Source: Candidatus Saccharimonadota bacterium
GTDB taxonomy: Bacteria; Patescibacteriota; Saccharimonadia; Saccharimonadales; UBA4665
Direction: 5' to 3'
Assembly (NCBI GenBank): GCA_027459325.1
Contig: DAIDIO010000005.1
Coordinates: 1-64,000 of the forward strand
Length of the DNA: 64,000 nt
In this document: positions 26,163 through 33,600 of the stretch, one piece after another
Layout: each line of letters opens with the position of its first letter
Numbering within the stretch: the stretch's first letter is position 1
Made by a program: the position numbers and the translations under genes
Notes under the pieces: model-generated
What the model was told of the DNA's origin: nothing
Databases searched by the model: none
What the model saw: the letters and a program-made list of their open reading frames with translations, nothing else

Positions 26163-26224
26163 CTTGACTATATCTATTTTAACATATTACGTAAATGTAC
26201 AATGCTAACTTCTTTATATATGCC

Positions 26225-26253
26225 TTGACAAGCAAGTATTTATTTGCTAGTAT
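26225..26253 (+). promoter_or_regulatory. Consensus-like promoter for the transposase, leaderless
   Basis: TTGACA (26225-26230), a 17-nt spacer and TAGTAT (26248-26253). ATG 26261 begins 7 nt after the -10, where transcription should start, so the mRNA would have no leader. Confidence 0.8.
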
Positions 26254-26260
26254 TAAAGGT

Positions 26261-27106
26261 ATGAGATACACACTTAATGACTTCAAGGCTGAATACCCTA
26301 ACGATAGGGCTTGCTTACTAGCAGTCTTAGAAAACCGTTATGGTGATACTTGTCCTCGTTGTGGCGTGATTGGCGTTAAGTTTCACCCAGTTACAGGACG
26401 AAAGAGCTTTGTTTGTTCTGAGTGTGACAAGTTTATCTCTCCACTAGCTGATACTATCTTTCGTAAATCCGAAACATCTTTATGGAACTGGTTTTATGCT
26501 ATTTATCAGTTCTCAGTATCTAAGAATGGCGTAAGTGCTAAAGAACTAGAGCGAAGCTTAGGAGTAACTTATAAAACGGCTTGGCGGATGTGTAAGCAGA
26601 TAAGACTACTTATGGAGCAAGACAACGATAAGCTTGCTGGAGAAATTGAAGTTGATGAAACCTATGCACCTAGTCGTAAACATCCAAGAAGAATAGGCAG
26701 AAGTAATAAACAAATAATATTTGGTGCTGTTGAGCGAAACGGTAGAGTTTCAGCTAATCATGTTAAAAGTTCTGGAGCTAGAGTTTTAATACCAATTATC
26801 CAAGATAGAGTAGAAACTGATGTAACAATCTATAGTGATGAGTTTGGTTCGTATAAAAGCTTAACTAAAAGAGGCTATACCCATACAACTGTTAATCACT
26901 CAACTCTTCAATATGTTAGAGGCACCGCTCATACAAACACCATAGAGGGCTTCTGGTCTCAATTAAAGAGAAGTATAGACGGAACTTATCACGCTGTATC
27001 ACCTAAGTATTTACAGAGCTATGTCAACCAATTTGTATTTCAGTATAACTTTAGAAATGTGCCTACTTGTCCGATTCTTTTGGAACGGGCTGCGAAGCTT
27101 TCTTAA
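26261..27106 (+). CDS. IS1595-family (ISXO2-like) transposase
   Basis: A 281-residue DDE-type transposase. A zinc ribbon lies at the start (CPRC and CSEC), followed by a helix-turn-helix (LERSLGVTYKTAWRMC). The catalytic domain has the first Asp in EIEVDETYAP, the second in IYSDEFGSY and the later NTIEGFWSQLKR. Length fits a full, uninterrupted enzyme. The start is set by the promoter at 26225. Its stop overlaps by 3 bp the stop of the convergent protease gene. No clear terminal inverted repeats were found by eye. Confidence 0.92.
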   Translation: MRYTLNDFKAEYPNDRACLLAVLENRYGDTCPRCGVIGVKFHPVTGRKSFVCSECDKFISPLADTIFRKSETSLWNWFYAIYQFSVSKNGVSAKELERSLGVTYKTAWRMCKQIRLLMEQDNDKLAGEIEVDETYAPSRKHPRRIGRSNKQIIFGAVERNGRVSANHVKSSGARVLIPIIQDRVETDVTIYSDEFGSYKSLTKRGYTHTTVNHSTLQYVRGTAHTNTIEGFWSQLKRSIDGTYHAVSPKYLQSYVNQFVFQYNFRNVPTCPILLERAAKLS

Positions 27107-27960: not shown

Positions 27961-28368
27961 GGGGCTGAATTTAAGCTCGACGTTGGACTTTATCAGTTAG
28001 ATCAGCAGGCCGCTTGTCAGCGTTATAGGCAAATATTTTAGATGCAAAATCAGTATCTGAAAAGTTGAGTGGTCTTAGTGATGCTTTTGTAGCAAGTCTG
28101 CAGAATGCTTTTGCTAAGCCTGCTCCTCAGTTAGTCTAAGGACTAGCAATGCCTTATATGACGCCAGATAGTTGAAAGGCATTTCATATTTTCTGGATGC
28201 TCGGCCAAACAAATCCGATTTGGTTGCTAAGATAAGGGTTGCTGCAGTAGAGAAGTTTGTTCGTTTATAAACCTACTGCAAAAGACAACTAAAGCGAACT
28301 AAGCCTGTAAATGACTAACACTAGATAAACTGACGGACGCGGAGGGCAGTACTCCGCCAGCTCCACCA
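27961..28368 (+). ncRNA. ssrA: Transfer-messenger RNA (tmRNA)
   Basis: A 408-nt one-piece tmRNA that rescues stalled ribosomes. The 5' end GGGGCTG pairs with CAGCTCC at the 3' end, including the G3-U70 pair that alanyl-tRNA synthetase needs; CCA is encoded. Also conserved are GCTCGACG near the 5' end and AACTAAGCCTGTA near the 3' end. The resume codon is GCA at 28029 after TTATAG. The tag frame runs 36 codons to TAA at 28137-28139: ANILDAKSV... to ...KPAPQLV, long and without the usual Ala-Ala end. The T-arm reads GCGGAG-GGCAGTA-CTCCGC, lacking TTCGA. A mobile element is integrated at its 3' end. Confidence 0.93.
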
Positions 28369-29899
28369 TTTCAGTAGAATTGGCCTTATCCAGGCCTTTT
28401 TTATTTGTACCTAATCTGTAAATTGTACTTAAGTTGGGGGTGTGAACATTTGCAGAATTGTCTACATAAATTTTACCGTTAAATATAATTTGTTCACCCC
28501 TCTTTTTATTTTCATAGGATAAATTCCACCATTTAGTTTTGAGATTATCAATGAAATCAATCGCAAATGCGACGAATTCTTCGCTAGCTAATTCAGTATT
28601 CATCATATTAGCAATATCTGTCTCTATTTCTTTAAGTTTAATATCGTAGTCCTCAATGAGTGCACGTAATGCATCTTTTGCAGGTCCCGCCTGCTCCTTG
28701 CTGAAGTTTATTGCCGCTGTTTTGAGGTCATGAGTAACTTGCTTCTTTGTAGCCTCTAAACTGCTAATGCGCTCAGAAACTGATCCTCTTTGACTTTTCC
28801 ATACTTTGATTAGAGCTTTTTTAAACATTTCTGGGCTAGGAAGAAACTTTAGCTGTTTTAGGAAATTATCAAACCCTTCATGGATATCTTCTCTATGTAT
28901 CCTCTGTCTGCAATCTCGGCAATCGTATACTGGTCTGAGTGGTCTTGGTTTCCCATTACGGCTTTTACCTCTATTGTGAAAATGACCAGAAAACTTTTCG
29001 TATCCACCACTATCCTTACATTTTTCATGTCTGATTATATTAGCCATAGGAAATTCGGGATTATGCTTTTGTCTTATTCTAGGATTACGTTTTTGGATTA
29101 CTGACACTAATACCGAATGTTCTCTTTTAGATAACATAGGTTCATGTATACCTTTAACATCTTTCGGCCAGCCATCTGATTTGACAGTTATAATTCCGCA
29201 ATAGTACGGGTTAACTATAAATTCACTGAAATGGTCTATAGATACCTTTCTGCCACCAAGTGTTCTATAACCTTTATCGTTTAGCCATTGAACAGCCTGG
29301 TTGACGTTATACTGCTTATAAATCAATAGCCTGCAGCATTCCTGAAGTAGCGTAAACCTCTGCAGGTCCGGGACGTGTAACCCTGCGATACTTGATTTCA
29401 TATAACCGGGATGGGGATGGGATAAGTAATAGCCTGACCCAAACCTGCTTTTCATCTTAGAAATTGTTGTATCGGCCCTCTCTTTATTTTCTTGTTCAGT
29501 CTTAAAGCCCTCTAATATCAACATCAGTTGAGCAATTTGATCATCGCTATTCAAGTGCCTCTGAGACGGGTCACAAAAGATTACTTTAACGTCCAATTCC
29601 TCAAGTTCATAAATGTACAAGATTAAAACTTTCCATTCTCGCATCAGTCTGCTTACCCTATCAACTAATAAGTAGCGGGTACTTTTATTCTTCCTACAGA
29701 ATTCAGTTATCTCCTTTAGGTCTTTTCTCTTCGCATTTATGCCCGCTTTACTAGATTGAGTAATGCTCCAGGTTTTAGTTATTTTTACCGACATCTCTGC
29801 AGCCATAGAGACGACGCTTTTTTCTTGCGCCTCTAAGCTATGCCCAGCTTCTTGGTTTTTAGAAGATATACGGCATAATGCTATTGCTTCAGTGTCCAT
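28289..29899 (-). CDS. Large serine recombinase (integrase) with tmRNA-derived C-terminus
   Basis: A 536-residue serine recombinase. S12 in LCRISSKNQE is the nucleophile, followed by SLEAQ and DRVSRLMREW of the catalytic domain. Then come a recombinase domain, a Cys-containing ribbon (VYDCRDCRQR) and a coiled coil near residues 390-450. ATG 29899 has an AAGG site 7 nt upstream. After N-S-T-E-M-V-E at the attachment core, the last 23 residues are encoded antisense to the tmRNA 3' end (LAEYCPPRPSV...). In a circular form, the same frame would instead run into 45 codons now at 32381-32518. It likely inserts and excises the element. Confidence 0.93.
   Translation of the reverse strand: MDTEAIALCRISSKNQEAGHSLEAQEKSVVSMAAEMSVKITKTWSITQSSKAGINAKRKDLKEITEFCRKNKSTRYLLVDRVSRLMREWKVLILYIYELEELDVKVIFCDPSQRHLNSDDQIAQLMLILEGFKTEQENKERADTTISKMKSRFGSGYYLSHPHPGYMKSSIAGLHVPDLQRFTLLQECCRLLIYKQYNVNQAVQWLNDKGYRTLGGRKVSIDHFSEFIVNPYYCGIITVKSDGWPKDVKGIHEPMLSKREHSVLVSVIQKRNPRIRQKHNPEFPMANIIRHEKCKDSGGYEKFSGHFHNRGKSRNGKPRPLRPVYDCRDCRQRIHREDIHEGFDNFLKQLKFLPSPEMFKKALIKVWKSQRGSVSERISSLEATKKQVTHDLKTAAINFSKEQAGPAKDALRALIEDYDIKLKEIETDIANMMNTELASEEFVAFAIDFIDNLKTKWWNLSYENKKRGEQIIFNGKIYVDNSANVHTPNLSTIYRLGTNKKGLDKANSTEMVELAEYCPPRPSVYLVLVIYRLSSL
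28360..28369. other. Left attachment site core (attL)
   Basis: GCTCCACCAT at the 3' terminus of tmRNA; identical to 32518-32527. The tmRNA CCA end lies inside the core, so insertion leaves the RNA intact. Confidence 0.7.
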
Positions 29900-29915
29900 A
29901 TCCAACCTTCAAATG

Positions 29916-30007
29916 AACGGATGGCAGTCCACGGATGCAGCTTGGCATACGAGCATGAAGACTGCCATCTGTTGATTTGATGATTATTTGTAGTAACATG
30001 CCAAGCT
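29916..30007. promoter_or_regulatory. Two interlocked inverted repeats upstream of the recombinase
   Basis: Repeat 1: AACGGATGGCAGTC (29916-29929) against GACTGCCATCTGTT (29960-29973), 14 bp with one mismatch. Repeat 2: AGCTTGGCAT (29939-29948) against ATGCCAAGCT (29998-30007), exact 10 bp. The left arm of repeat 2 lies in the loop of repeat 1 and its right arm outside, the geometry of a pseudoknot if transcribed. On DNA they could be binding sites for the recombinase or a regulator. Confidence 0.6.
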
Positions 30008-30020
30008 TTTACCGTAAATT

Positions 30021-30137
30021 CTATTCTTCCTCTAAAATCGTTTCCTCATAAATACCATACAACCATAAGCAAAATTCTTCCAGATCGTCCTGCTTTGGTG
30101 TTCTGCTATTTTTAGTGTGTAGATTAGAAAGGCACAT
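30021..30137 (-). CDS. Possible 38-residue small protein of the element
   Basis: An ATG frame (MCLSNLHTK... to ...YGIYEETILEEE) ending in an acidic helix. Codon content looks protein-like and it sits between the DUF5681 and recombinase genes, where small directionality or regulator proteins often lie. TATTAG occurs 7 nt before ATG, but this is also part of a terminator hairpin. Weak call. Confidence 0.35.
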   Translation of the reverse strand: MCLSNLHTKNSRTPKQDDLEEFCLWLYGIYEETILEEE

Positions 30138-30142
30138 AAAAA

Positions 30143-30165
30143 CCCTAATAGATAATTTATTAGGG
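30143..30165 (-). terminator. Minus-strand terminator after the DUF5681 gene
   Basis: CCCTAATA (30143-30150) and TATTAGGG (30158-30165) form an exact 8-bp stem; on the minus strand it is followed by a T run. Confidence 0.75.
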
Positions 30166-30240
30166 CTCTTCGTACTATGTTATATATCTAGCAAATTCGA
30201 ACTTAACGGCCTGAATGATTTGTTAAGTATTACTATATTA

Positions 30241-30609
30241 TCACATTCCATCCTGTTCTTCCTGACGTCGTAACCGTGCCATTTGCTCTAATTGATATGA
30301 AGTAAGTTTTGGACCCGTATAGTTACTATTATTTGAAAACTCAATTTCAAGCTTGTTGGCATAGCCGTGTTTAAAAAGTAGTTCTGTCGCTTTAATATCT
30401 CCATTAGCAGCTTTATTAATTAAAGCATCTAATATAACGGCTATAGGAGGAGCTTTGACTTCGCTAGTTTCCGGCAGTTTATATCTAAAATTATTATTTT
30501 CAAGAGCTTCTCGAATGTACGTAGCAACATGCTTAGCTCCTTTAGGTTTGCTCCCCCGTCGAGAGTCATATCCCTTTTTAAACGGTTTTAAATTATCATT
30601 ATTAGCCAT
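30241..30609 (-). CDS. DUF5681-family protein
   Basis: A 122-residue protein starting with a basic stretch FKKGYDSRRGSKPKGAKH, then a helical region with NKAANGDIKATELLFKHGYANK. This is the DUF5681 pattern, common in phages and mobile elements, sometimes near packaging genes. It might bind DNA. TACTGT lies 8 nt before ATG. The terminator at 30143 follows. Confidence 0.78.
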   Translation of the reverse strand: MANNDNLKPFKKGYDSRRGSKPKGAKHVATYIREALENNNFRYKLPETSEVKAPPIAVILDALINKAANGDIKATELLFKHGYANKLEIEFSNNSNYTGPKLTSYQLEQMARLRRQEEQDGM

Positions 30610-30648
30610 AGATTGTCACAGTATTCTCGCAGTATTTTTAAAAATAAA

Positions 30649-30669
30649 AGCCCGCATAGATAGCGGGCT
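30649..30669 (-). terminator. Minus-strand terminator-like hairpin
   Basis: AGCCCGC (30649-30655) and GCGGGCT (30663-30669), an exact 7-bp stem with a 7-nt loop, followed on the minus strand by TTTTATTTTT. It would stop transcription arriving from the right before the DUF5681 gene. Confidence 0.7.
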
Positions 30670-30855
30670 GATGCCTATAAGTTAATAATAACTTAGTCTT
30701 TCGTATTTAACAAAAAACATATTGGCTTTTTTCCTGAACTTAAATTTTGCGAAAATTACAAAGCGAGCAGGCAATCCTGCAAACTAGACAAACTATGACA
30801 AAAGTCGTAAAGTCGATATTTAGAGTAACTATTAATATTTAGTACCAGAGTCTCA

Positions 30856-31497
30856 ATGGAACAATTATTTGACCTAGAAGGTCATCACCGAAAGCAGAAA
30901 AAACAACTTATTTATAAGGTTCTCATTATTGTGGTGGTGGTAGGAATAGCGACGCTTGGAGGCGTATCTCTTTTAGCGAAGAAGCAAGTCGCTTCAAGAC
31001 AGTTAGCGACGGTTAATTATGGCGCAATGGCTAATGATACGACGACACCGTTGGATACAAGTAGCAATTCGAGCGGTACGAGTTCTGAATTAAGTAAACT
31101 TAACCAGGAGATTGCCCAAGAGAAAGCCCAGGCTGCTCAGGACGAGGCCAATGCCGAGCAATATTTAAATGCAGCCGAGAATACTTCGATAGATAGTACA
31201 CCTCCTCCTGTTGATAGTAGTAGCACGCCCACCGTATCACTGCCTAATGTGCCAAGTACAACTCCATCGGCTAGCTGTAATATACCTAGTAACCTAAATA
31301 CCTTGGAAACTCAATATACTCAAGCAGTGGGAGCTCTCAACAGCTTCGAGAGCCAAATGAATACAGCTGGAGGCAAATATGGAATGAATGCGTCAGAGCT
31401 TCAGGCATATGACCAGCAGCAATTATCATCATTAGAAACAACAGCAACTAACGCTTATAACGCATACACTTCAGCAGAGTCTCAAATAAGTTGTTAA
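30856..31497 (+). CDS. Single-pass membrane protein with helical ectodomain
   Basis: A 213-residue protein: a basic cytoplasmic start, a membrane helix near 22-42 (VLIIVVVVGIATLGGVSLL), an Ala/Glu/Gln-rich coiled-coil stretch (about 78-112), a Ser/Thr/Pro linker and a helical C-terminal part with two Cys (about 138 and the last residue). Likely exposed at the surface. Not recognised; it lies inside the element as cargo. Confidence 0.78.
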   Translation: MEQLFDLEGHHRKQKKQLIYKVLIIVVVVGIATLGGVSLLAKKQVASRQLATVNYGAMANDTTTPLDTSSNSSGTSSELSKLNQEIAQEKAQAAQDEANAEQYLNAAENTSIDSTPPPVDSSSTPTVSLPNVPSTTPSASCNIPSNLNTLETQYTQAVGALNSFESQMNTAGGKYGMNASELQAYDQQQLSSLETTATNAYNAYTSAESQISC

Positions 31498-31687
31498 CTG
31501 TAGCAGAGTAATAAATAACGGATTATGTCATAATTATTTTTTAACAGGGGTGAAGGTATTTGTATGTCGCACTTGACACGCCATTAGTATAAAGAAATTT
31601 ATAAATTACCTCTGTTACTCATGTTCCTACAATACTCATTGTGCGACGTTATAGTATTAATAATTCGTTTTTTGCTATTATTCAGAT

Positions 31688-32323
31688 ATGAGCACTAATA
31701 ATAATCAAGAGTCAAATCCTTGGGTTAAGGCAGGGATGGAGGCGTATAAGCAACAAATTGCAAAGCAAAAACTTTTGGAGCAGATTGTTTATGATGCAGC
31801 AAAAGAGGGTGAACCCACTTTGGCAGCCCAAATTGGGATGTTTGTAGTTTATGTCCAGCAACTTGAGCAAATAATAAAGCAGATACTCAACATTACCTAC
31901 AGTTTTAAGAGTTACTTTGATAATAATGGCTATTCTGTCCTCTATAAAACAGACTCTATTATTAGGGATAGTGATAGTTTGGGTACATTAGTAAAGCTAC
32001 TAAAGACTATTAATGTAAGAGACGAAAAAACTTATAAACAGGTTATGGATGATTTTGTCATTAAGCTAGAGACTTTTGTGCAGAAAAGAAACAATTACAT
32101 CCATAAATTATTAAAAGATCCGAGCATCAATGATCTAGCAAAGTTGAAGGTTTCTGTAATAAACGCCAATATGGAGTTACTTGAACTGATCGACGAAGCC
32201 GAAAATAAGTTGAGTATTCTGAATGGTTTATTCGAGTTAGATGGATATCCTTATACACTTGCACGGCATATGATAAGTAGCGAAAAGTATAAACCAAAAC
32301 CAATAAATAAAAAGTCTTCCTGA
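31688..32323 (+). CDS. Helical protein with HEPN-like RX4H motif
   Basis: A 211-residue all-helical protein. FVQKRNNYIHKLL contains R134-x4-H139, the motif of HEPN ribonucleases, placed after a long helix as in that fold. Earlier helices hold QLEQIIKQIL. HEPN proteins act in toxin-antitoxin and antiphage systems, which would suit cargo of a mobile element. The assignment rests on one motif. TATTAT lies 6 nt before ATG. Confidence 0.75.
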   Translation: MSTNNNQESNPWVKAGMEAYKQQIAKQKLLEQIVYDAAKEGEPTLAAQIGMFVVYVQQLEQIIKQILNITYSFKSYFDNNGYSVLYKTDSIIRDSDSLGTLVKLLKTINVRDEKTYKQVMDDFVIKLETFVQKRNNYIHKLLKDPSINDLAKLKVSVINANMELLELIDEAENKLSILNGLFELDGYPYTLARHMISSEKYKPKPINKKSS

Positions 32324-32380
32324 GTAGCTTACGAGTAGGGGGTAGATACCTATATGACTGGACGAAATAACTACCTCAAG

Positions 32381-32527
32381 TTAAGGGCGTATACCTGTAG
32401 GGGATACAGACTTCTTTCGTTGTTTATGATAGTGCTGAAAGTCTAAGTAGTCGTCCCAGATTAATTCATGCAAGCGCTGTACTTCATCAATAATGAGGGG
32501 TGAACTTTTTTCGAGGTGCTCCACCAT
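32381..32527 (-). pseudogene. Displaced 3' part of the serine recombinase gene
   Basis: A 48-codon open frame starting MVEHLEKSS, then LIIDEVQRLHELIWDDYLDF and a basic tail, TAA at 32381-32383. Its first ten bases are the attachment core and it is in the same frame as M-V-E in the recombinase. In the excised circle the recombinase would therefore be 558 residues, ending with this tail. In the integrated form it is cut off, though GATAAT 8 nt before its ATG might still express it alone. Confidence 0.65.
32518..32527. other. Right attachment site core (attR)
   Basis: GCTCCACCAT, identical to the tmRNA-end copy. Sequence to its right (AGATAAGCATTATCC) would be the original ssrA flank. From there to 32700 I see only two inverted repeats, CTCCATT/AATGGAG and AGGAGC/GCTCCT, and no gene. 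Confidence 0.65.
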
Positions 32528-33141: not shown

Positions 33142-33600
33142 CTATGGCTTCGCTACATGAAAATTAGCAACCCCGTCGCCTGTTACTTGGCCATTAGTAT
33201 CGCCAGTGAAAGTGTAAAGAGGCATGCCTTTGTAAGCGTATTGTTTAGAACCGTCGCTACGACTAATTATAGTTATATGTGCAGGCAGGCTAGCGGCAGA
33301 ACTGGTCGGTGCATATATAGGCCAACTGCTTAAACAGCTGCCAGTACAGTTACTAACCCCATTAGAGTCTGCGCCGTAAGTGTATAAAGGCTGACCTAAA
33401 TTGTTAGCTAAGTATTGGCCGATATGAGGAGCTGTCTTTATTTCAATAATACTGGCCGTTCTAGGCGTTGTTTTGGCGCTTTTAGTTGTAGTTACTGGTG
33501 TTGAGTAAGATTTGTTTACGGGTGATTTTTGAGTTAGTGCATATACTCCGGCGACAATAATAACTAAAGCAATTATGGCTAGTATTAATTTCTTTAACAT
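33142..33600 (-). CDS. Secreted repeat protein of the Lipoprotein_15 / COG4315 type
   Basis: A 152-residue exported protein with an N-terminal membrane segment (KKLILAIIALVIIVAGVYAL) and two repeats of the form YLANNLGQPLYTYGADSNG and PLYTFTGDTNG with a CTGSCLSSWP motif between, typical of this family of unknown function. ATG 33600 has AAGGAG 7 nt upstream, which fixes the start. Confidence 0.9.
   Translation of the reverse strand: MLKKLILAIIALVIIVAGVYALTQKSPVNKSYSTPVTTTKSAKTTPRTASIIEIKTAPHIGQYLANNLGQPLYTYGADSNGVSNCTGSCLSSWPIYAPTSSAASLPAHITIISRSDGSKQYAYKGMPLYTFTGDTNGQVTGDGVANFHVAKP

Follow-up and report, generated by a model that had tools for sequence, protein, structure and literature searches.

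A recombinase gene whose 3' end overlaps its own attachment site at ssrA raises the question of which C-terminus is native to the enzyme, and of what integration does to it. The locus lies in the window, the whole 64,000-nucleotide stretch of Saccharimonadales DNA that was analysed. The reading preferred here, with a probability of about 0.74, is that positions 28370-32527 form a small integrative element encoding a large serine recombinase whose own gene holds attP within its 3' end, and that the tailed form of this enzyme would carry out integration while the integrated form would be impaired or altered. The features concerned are these:

27961..28368, plus strand: ssrA (tmRNA), the integration target (Rfam RF00023, 71.5 bits, E 7.9e-26)
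28289..29899, minus strand: large serine recombinase, integrated form, 536 residues (ATG at 29899, stop at 28289)
28289..28359, minus strand: replacement C-terminus LAEYCPPRPSVYLVLVIYRLSSL, gained on integration, 23 codons reading antisense to the tmRNA
28360..28369: left core (attL) GCTCCACCAT, the last tmRNA bases plus one, exact repeat
28370..32527: integrated element, 4158 bp, from the repeat boundaries and its absence from empty ssrA loci
28382..28402, plus strand: predicted tmRNA terminator supplied by the element, GGCCTTATCCAGGCC, stem GGCCT/AGGCC, then T6 (fold z -3.7)
30241..30609, minus strand: gene for a small protein, located upstream of the recombinase, with a weak, sub-threshold resemblance to DUF5681 (Pfam E 7e-5)
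30856..31497, plus strand: cargo, predicted membrane-anchored protein, no family match
31688..32323, plus strand: cargo gene
32381..32517, minus strand: detached native recombinase tail HLEKSSPLIIDEVQRLHELIWDDYLDFQHYHKQRKKSVSPTGIRP plus stop, whose frame matches that of the recombinase when read across the core
32492..32517, minus strand: proximal tail DNA, likely the right attP arm, conserved at all codon positions
32518..32527: right core (attR) GCTCCACCAT, exact repeat

Boundaries of the element at ssrA

Across both strands of the whole window, the core GCTCCACCAT is present in just two copies, at 28360 and 32518. The sequences on either side of them cannot be aligned with each other, which gives the repeat a length of exactly 10 bp. 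The 3' end of ssrA is still intact after integration. For comparison, 40 family-level ssrA loci were picked by tmRNA score alone, fetched and oriented. Neither a recombinase end nor a tail was present in 35 of these 40 loci; three others retain a recombinase end at ssrA and two retain a tail remnant. A homologue of the window gene 33145-33600, which sits past the right core in the window, follows ssrA at a distance of about 250 bp in two of the empty loci (L138 and L144), and the window genes further downstream are syntenic with many of the sampled loci. The empty loci, together with the resumption of synteny at the 33145-33600 homologue, define the insertion as 28370-32527, a length of 4158 bp. 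The exact repeat, the empty loci and the layout of the relatives thus bear out the boundaries, and the placement of attP inside the recombinase 3' end, that an earlier note on this DNA had proposed. That note had also asked whether empty ssrA sites still carry the tail downstream, and the sampled loci answer that they do not.

The same loci bear on the possibility that the repeat is coincidental and the tail a host open reading frame downstream of ssrA. A repeat of only 10 bp would permit such a coincidence; however, host gene order resumes without the tail at sites that lack the element, and elements of various sizes, inserted at different targets, carry tails at their far ends. A host origin of the tail is contradicted by the empty ssrA sites and was rejected, with practically no probability left to it.

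Just past the core on the ssrA strand lies the predicted terminator structure, complementary to the recombinase codons for NKKGLDKA. By a strict terminator definition, such a structure is present on the target strand in 9 of 14 related recombinase ends versus 0 of 588 gene-body windows, and the other five ends have looser stems. The element restores the 3' end of its target and supplies its predicted terminator, where transcription would presumably stop. Coding sequence, attachment site and target-gene terminator are in this way packed into about 130 bases.

ARAGORN made no call for the tmRNA at 27961-28368 or for several related Saccharimonadales tmRNAs, which Rfam finds. An IS1595-family transposase gene (window 26195-27106) lies just upstream of ssrA.

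The recombinase gene and its two C-termini

Two Pfam domains are found above cut-off in the recombinase, Resolvase (PF00239, E 3.1e-13) followed by Recombinase (PF07508, E 1.4e-6), and the protein matches the PHROG 95 integrase (E 5e-39). Judged by this content, the product of 28289-29899 belongs to the large serine recombinases; a short att core at one specific target, which marks this class, is likewise found here as the 10-bp core at ssrA. A sequence search of the PDB with the recombinase gave matches to catalytic domains only, and an AlphaFold2 prediction of the integrated form (three sequences) reached a mean pLDDT of 53.5, too poor to place the C-terminus.

When the ends of the element are joined at the core, the recombinase frame extends to 558 residues versus 536 in the integrated form. 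The core repeat, frame, overlap and both protein lengths given in the earlier note were recomputed from the window and all hold; its claim that integration swaps the C-terminus also stands, and the layout behind it is repeated in the ten intact split elements described below. An open stretch of 45 codons has a chance of about 5% at the base composition of the window and would be weak evidence if taken alone. It is the occurrence of homologous tails at the same place, on the same strand and in the same phase in other elements that places the tail beyond chance.

The sequence shows that, in the circular form, the recombinase gene continues past the core and ends in a conserved tail about 35-45 residues long. 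Under the preferred reading, the complete protein with its tail, as expressed from the circle, would be the form selected for integration. The integrated, tail-less form would be impaired or altered, giving a one-way bias; most likely it would be unable to re-integrate, or could excise only with the aid of a helper or directionality factor. The full gene would be restored by excision, or by the insertion of another tail-bearing element in front. An activity switch between the two recombinase forms can be inferred from this arrangement. The attP junction was sought in the element's own assembly and no circular form was seen there. No relative was found in viral contigs (IMG/VR), for which the queries were the recombinase itself, an alignment of ten recombinases and the tail alignment, nor in phage records searched by tblastn.

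Besides the recombinase, 28370-32527 contains three other genes. The position of the gene at 30241-30609, upstream of the recombinase, is occupied in other elements by a small gene that is in part HTH-like (weak matches). From its position and these weak HTH-like matches in relatives, one might guess that the 30241-30609 product is a regulator or a directionality factor. The cargo protein of 30856-31497 has an apparent counterpart in the L077 element, recognized by its similar N-terminus.

The element could also be a dead remnant, with the C-terminal swap a by-product of decay, as many related loci are internally deleted remnants. Here, in contrast, the recombinase open reading frame is intact and keeps the residues that are invariant across the ten-relative alignment, both cores are identical and the tail is open, so that decay is barely tenable as an explanation.

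Tails in related elements and the selection acting on them

When the recombinase C-terminus plus tail was searched against 247 genomes of the order, two complete relatives that are split alike were found, L077 (G484) and L078 (G482), whose recombinases share about 50% identity with that of the window, along with several remnants. An order-wide profile search covering 393 genomes found a recombinase end together with a tail on 13 contigs, and the tail is upstream on the same strand in all 13 (p ~1.5e-8 under random placement, for pairs that are not independent evolutionary events). Most of the relatives are metagenome assemblies. Eleven recombinase-tail pairs were checked base by base; the recombinase is intact in ten of them, and an automatic test placed the tail in phase in 10 of the 11. 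In L077 this test chose an unrelated run outside the core, and the core itself (ATGGTGGAGC versus ATGGAGGAGC) is in phase.

In ten intact split Saccharimonadales elements, the recombinase 3' end lies at the target and a homologous tail lies at the far end, on the same strand and in phase. Their targets are ssrA, tRNA-Gly, tRNA-Glu and tRNA-Lys; the target of L226, one of the ten, lies past the contig end, and that of L228, the pair without an intact recombinase, is deduced. The shared att core measures 6-12 bp in the other intact pairs whose shared run lies at the core, and the tails follow the consensus MV....KS..LI..E..RWR..L...Y across all targets. On these comparisons, the split-recombinase arrangement is real and widespread among Saccharimonadales. 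The earlier note had further asked whether the tail is native to the family, and it is: recombinases carry the tail, split or unsplit.

Unsplit junctions occur in the tandem arrays L079, L080, L083 and L086, where recombinase end, core and tail are joined as two adjacent elements would give, and joined ends are present in further contigs (L035, L230, L231, L232 and L235). L229, from a more distant lineage, encodes a complete unsplit recombinase of 559 residues with a divergent tail. At the level of sequence, these layouts establish that a whole gene exists only in the free element or where another tail-bearing unit sits in front, and that integration detaches a tail under selection.

The nature of this selection was assessed by a pN/pS comparison of the tails of eight ssrA-type loci. 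Codons 1-12 (32492-32527 in the window, core included) are equally conserved at silent and replacement sites (pN 0.11, pS 0.12) and thus fit an attP arm. Differences in codons 13-43 are mostly silent (pN 0.31, pS 0.65). The recombinase frame of the tail contains one stop across the eight sequences (in L083) versus 4-23 in the other five frames; one reverse frame is also raised (pS 0.54), as expected from common wobble positions, and carries 15 stops. By these measures, codons 13-43 are under protein-level constraint in the recombinase frame only, and the part kept by selection is the far-end tail rather than the antisense-tmRNA peptide. Since the tail is also retained in short units that lack a recombinase, its conservation may in part be due to the needs of the att site or to a common origin in the recent past.

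An alternative is that the attP overlap and the loss of the tail are real but functionally neutral, with the tail kept mainly as attP DNA. Serine recombinases often have dispensable C-terminal residues, conservation in the first 12 codons is at the level of DNA and not of protein, and tails are also retained in short units that have no recombinase. Against this, the constraint on codons 13-43 as protein is confined to the recombinase frame, and homologous tails are found at more than one kind of target gene. A neutral tail is therefore judged unlikely, without being far-fetched.

The tail might instead be a separate small protein, started from an ATG or TTG at the core and acting in trans when the element is integrated. 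Most tails do begin with one of these codons at the core, and the stretch in the window is a 48-codon open reading frame. However, host flank lies upstream of the right core and varies from locus to locus, the window copy has no evident ribosome-binding site, and the frame always matches that of the recombinase. On these three grounds a stand-alone tail peptide was rejected as highly improbable.

Precedents, arrays and wider distribution

The preferred reading, in which integration takes the tail away from the recombinase, can be set beside several known systems. The integrase of Myxococcus phage Mx8 is a tyrosine recombinase, and the gene altered by integration in mycobacteriophage BPs encodes a repressor, unlike the recombinase altered here. 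In Mx8, attP lies inside the integrase gene and integration gives a new 3' end, which is reported to modify the enzyme (PMC6070905); the window element likewise has attP within the recombinase coding sequence and gains a new 3' end on integration. Mx8 differs in being a phage with an unrelated integrase, and its biochemical effects were measured, whereas the window element is known from sequence. In the integration-dependent immunity of BPs, integration alters a phage gene spanning attP (PMC4557955). Archaeal suicidal integrases of the SSV, pTN3 and pT26-2 type have the recombination site within the gene, which is split by integration (PMC8371274); these are tyrosine enzymes whose N- and C-terminal parts, including the catalytic domain, become separated, whereas the window element loses a short C-terminal tail only.

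The nearest precedent is found in the Dehalococcoides ssrA islands, where the serine recombinase gene dsiB always overlaps attL (McMurdie et al. 2011, PMC3146451) and was proposed to be fully functional maybe only on the circle or beside an island supplying the 3' fragment (PMC3146451). The window element shares the overlap of a serine recombinase 3' end with attL at ssrA. Also alike are the size of the enzyme (about 540 residues), its position at attL next to ssrA, its antisense reading into ssrA or a neighbouring island, and the tandem islands behind ssrA. In contrast, the DsiB islands have a 20-bp direct repeat with an inferred T-loop insertion (here a 10-bp core at the very 3' end), a six-gene integration module with a second recombinase, DsiA (here 4.2 kb and one recombinase), and no reported conserved tail (here a detached tail with coding constraint). 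Since it has no six-gene module, second recombinase or T-loop insertion, the window element is not filed with the DsiB islands. The resemblance to phage switches drawn in the earlier note is sound as to mechanism, by way of Mx8, but the closest case is DsiB and not a phage system.

The idea of circle-only function is thus not new, having been proposed earlier for the Dehalococcoides islands; what is new, with respect to the open-access literature, is the finding of a conserved tail that can be detached, together with the constraint on its coding sequence and the extent of its occurrence. An aside of 2011 becomes a testable family-wide property, namely that the recombinase gene is whole only in the free element. 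If the tail controls direction, these would be serine recombinases with a DNA-encoded on/off state, which would bear on how mobile elements avoid re-excision and on the engineering of one-way integrases. A doubtful but possible extension is that the detachable conserved tail acts as a built-in state sensor in a whole family of Saccharimonadales serine recombinases, the gene being completed only on the circle or by a neighbouring unit inserted in front, and that units sharing this att site and tail but lacking a recombinase build up, often with one gene each, into integron-like arrays behind ssrA and elsewhere, moved in trans by the resident recombinase.

Arrays of short units occur in L086 (G081, downstream of ssrA), L236 (G149), L237 (G498), L226 (G470), L238 (G474) and L080 (G477). 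Their units are about 0.5-1.7 kb apart, often with one gene each and without a recombinase, in an integron-like layout, and each begins with the att core plus the recombinase tail. In a pattern search, the att sites of the arrays cluster on one contig per genome, and a reversed-pattern control gave none.

The genome of the window element (G000) has two more serine recombinase ends, at C9:10-285 and C4:4364-5242, which are antisense to and abut tRNA-Gly and tRNA-Leu. In distant Patescibacteria (L005-L033), most large serine recombinase open reading frames end antisense in the 3' end of a tRNA or tmRNA gene. Because these frames read into the tRNA or tmRNA, the annotated recombinase C-termini are partly antisense tRNA, and recombinase annotations in these genomes can be corrected accordingly. 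Outside the order, recombinase ends antisense into tRNA genes are common and far-end tails are convincing in few cases, so that generality beyond Saccharimonadales is no more than suggested. Among tRNA-targeted recombinases of distant Patescibacteria (L173-L192), a search of 20 kb upstream gave no convincing far-end repeat for some. The far-end frames of L183 and L188 resemble each other. In L183, L180 and L178 the tRNA-end repeat occurs twice at the far end, about 150-220 bp apart, possibly as a result of two nested integrations.
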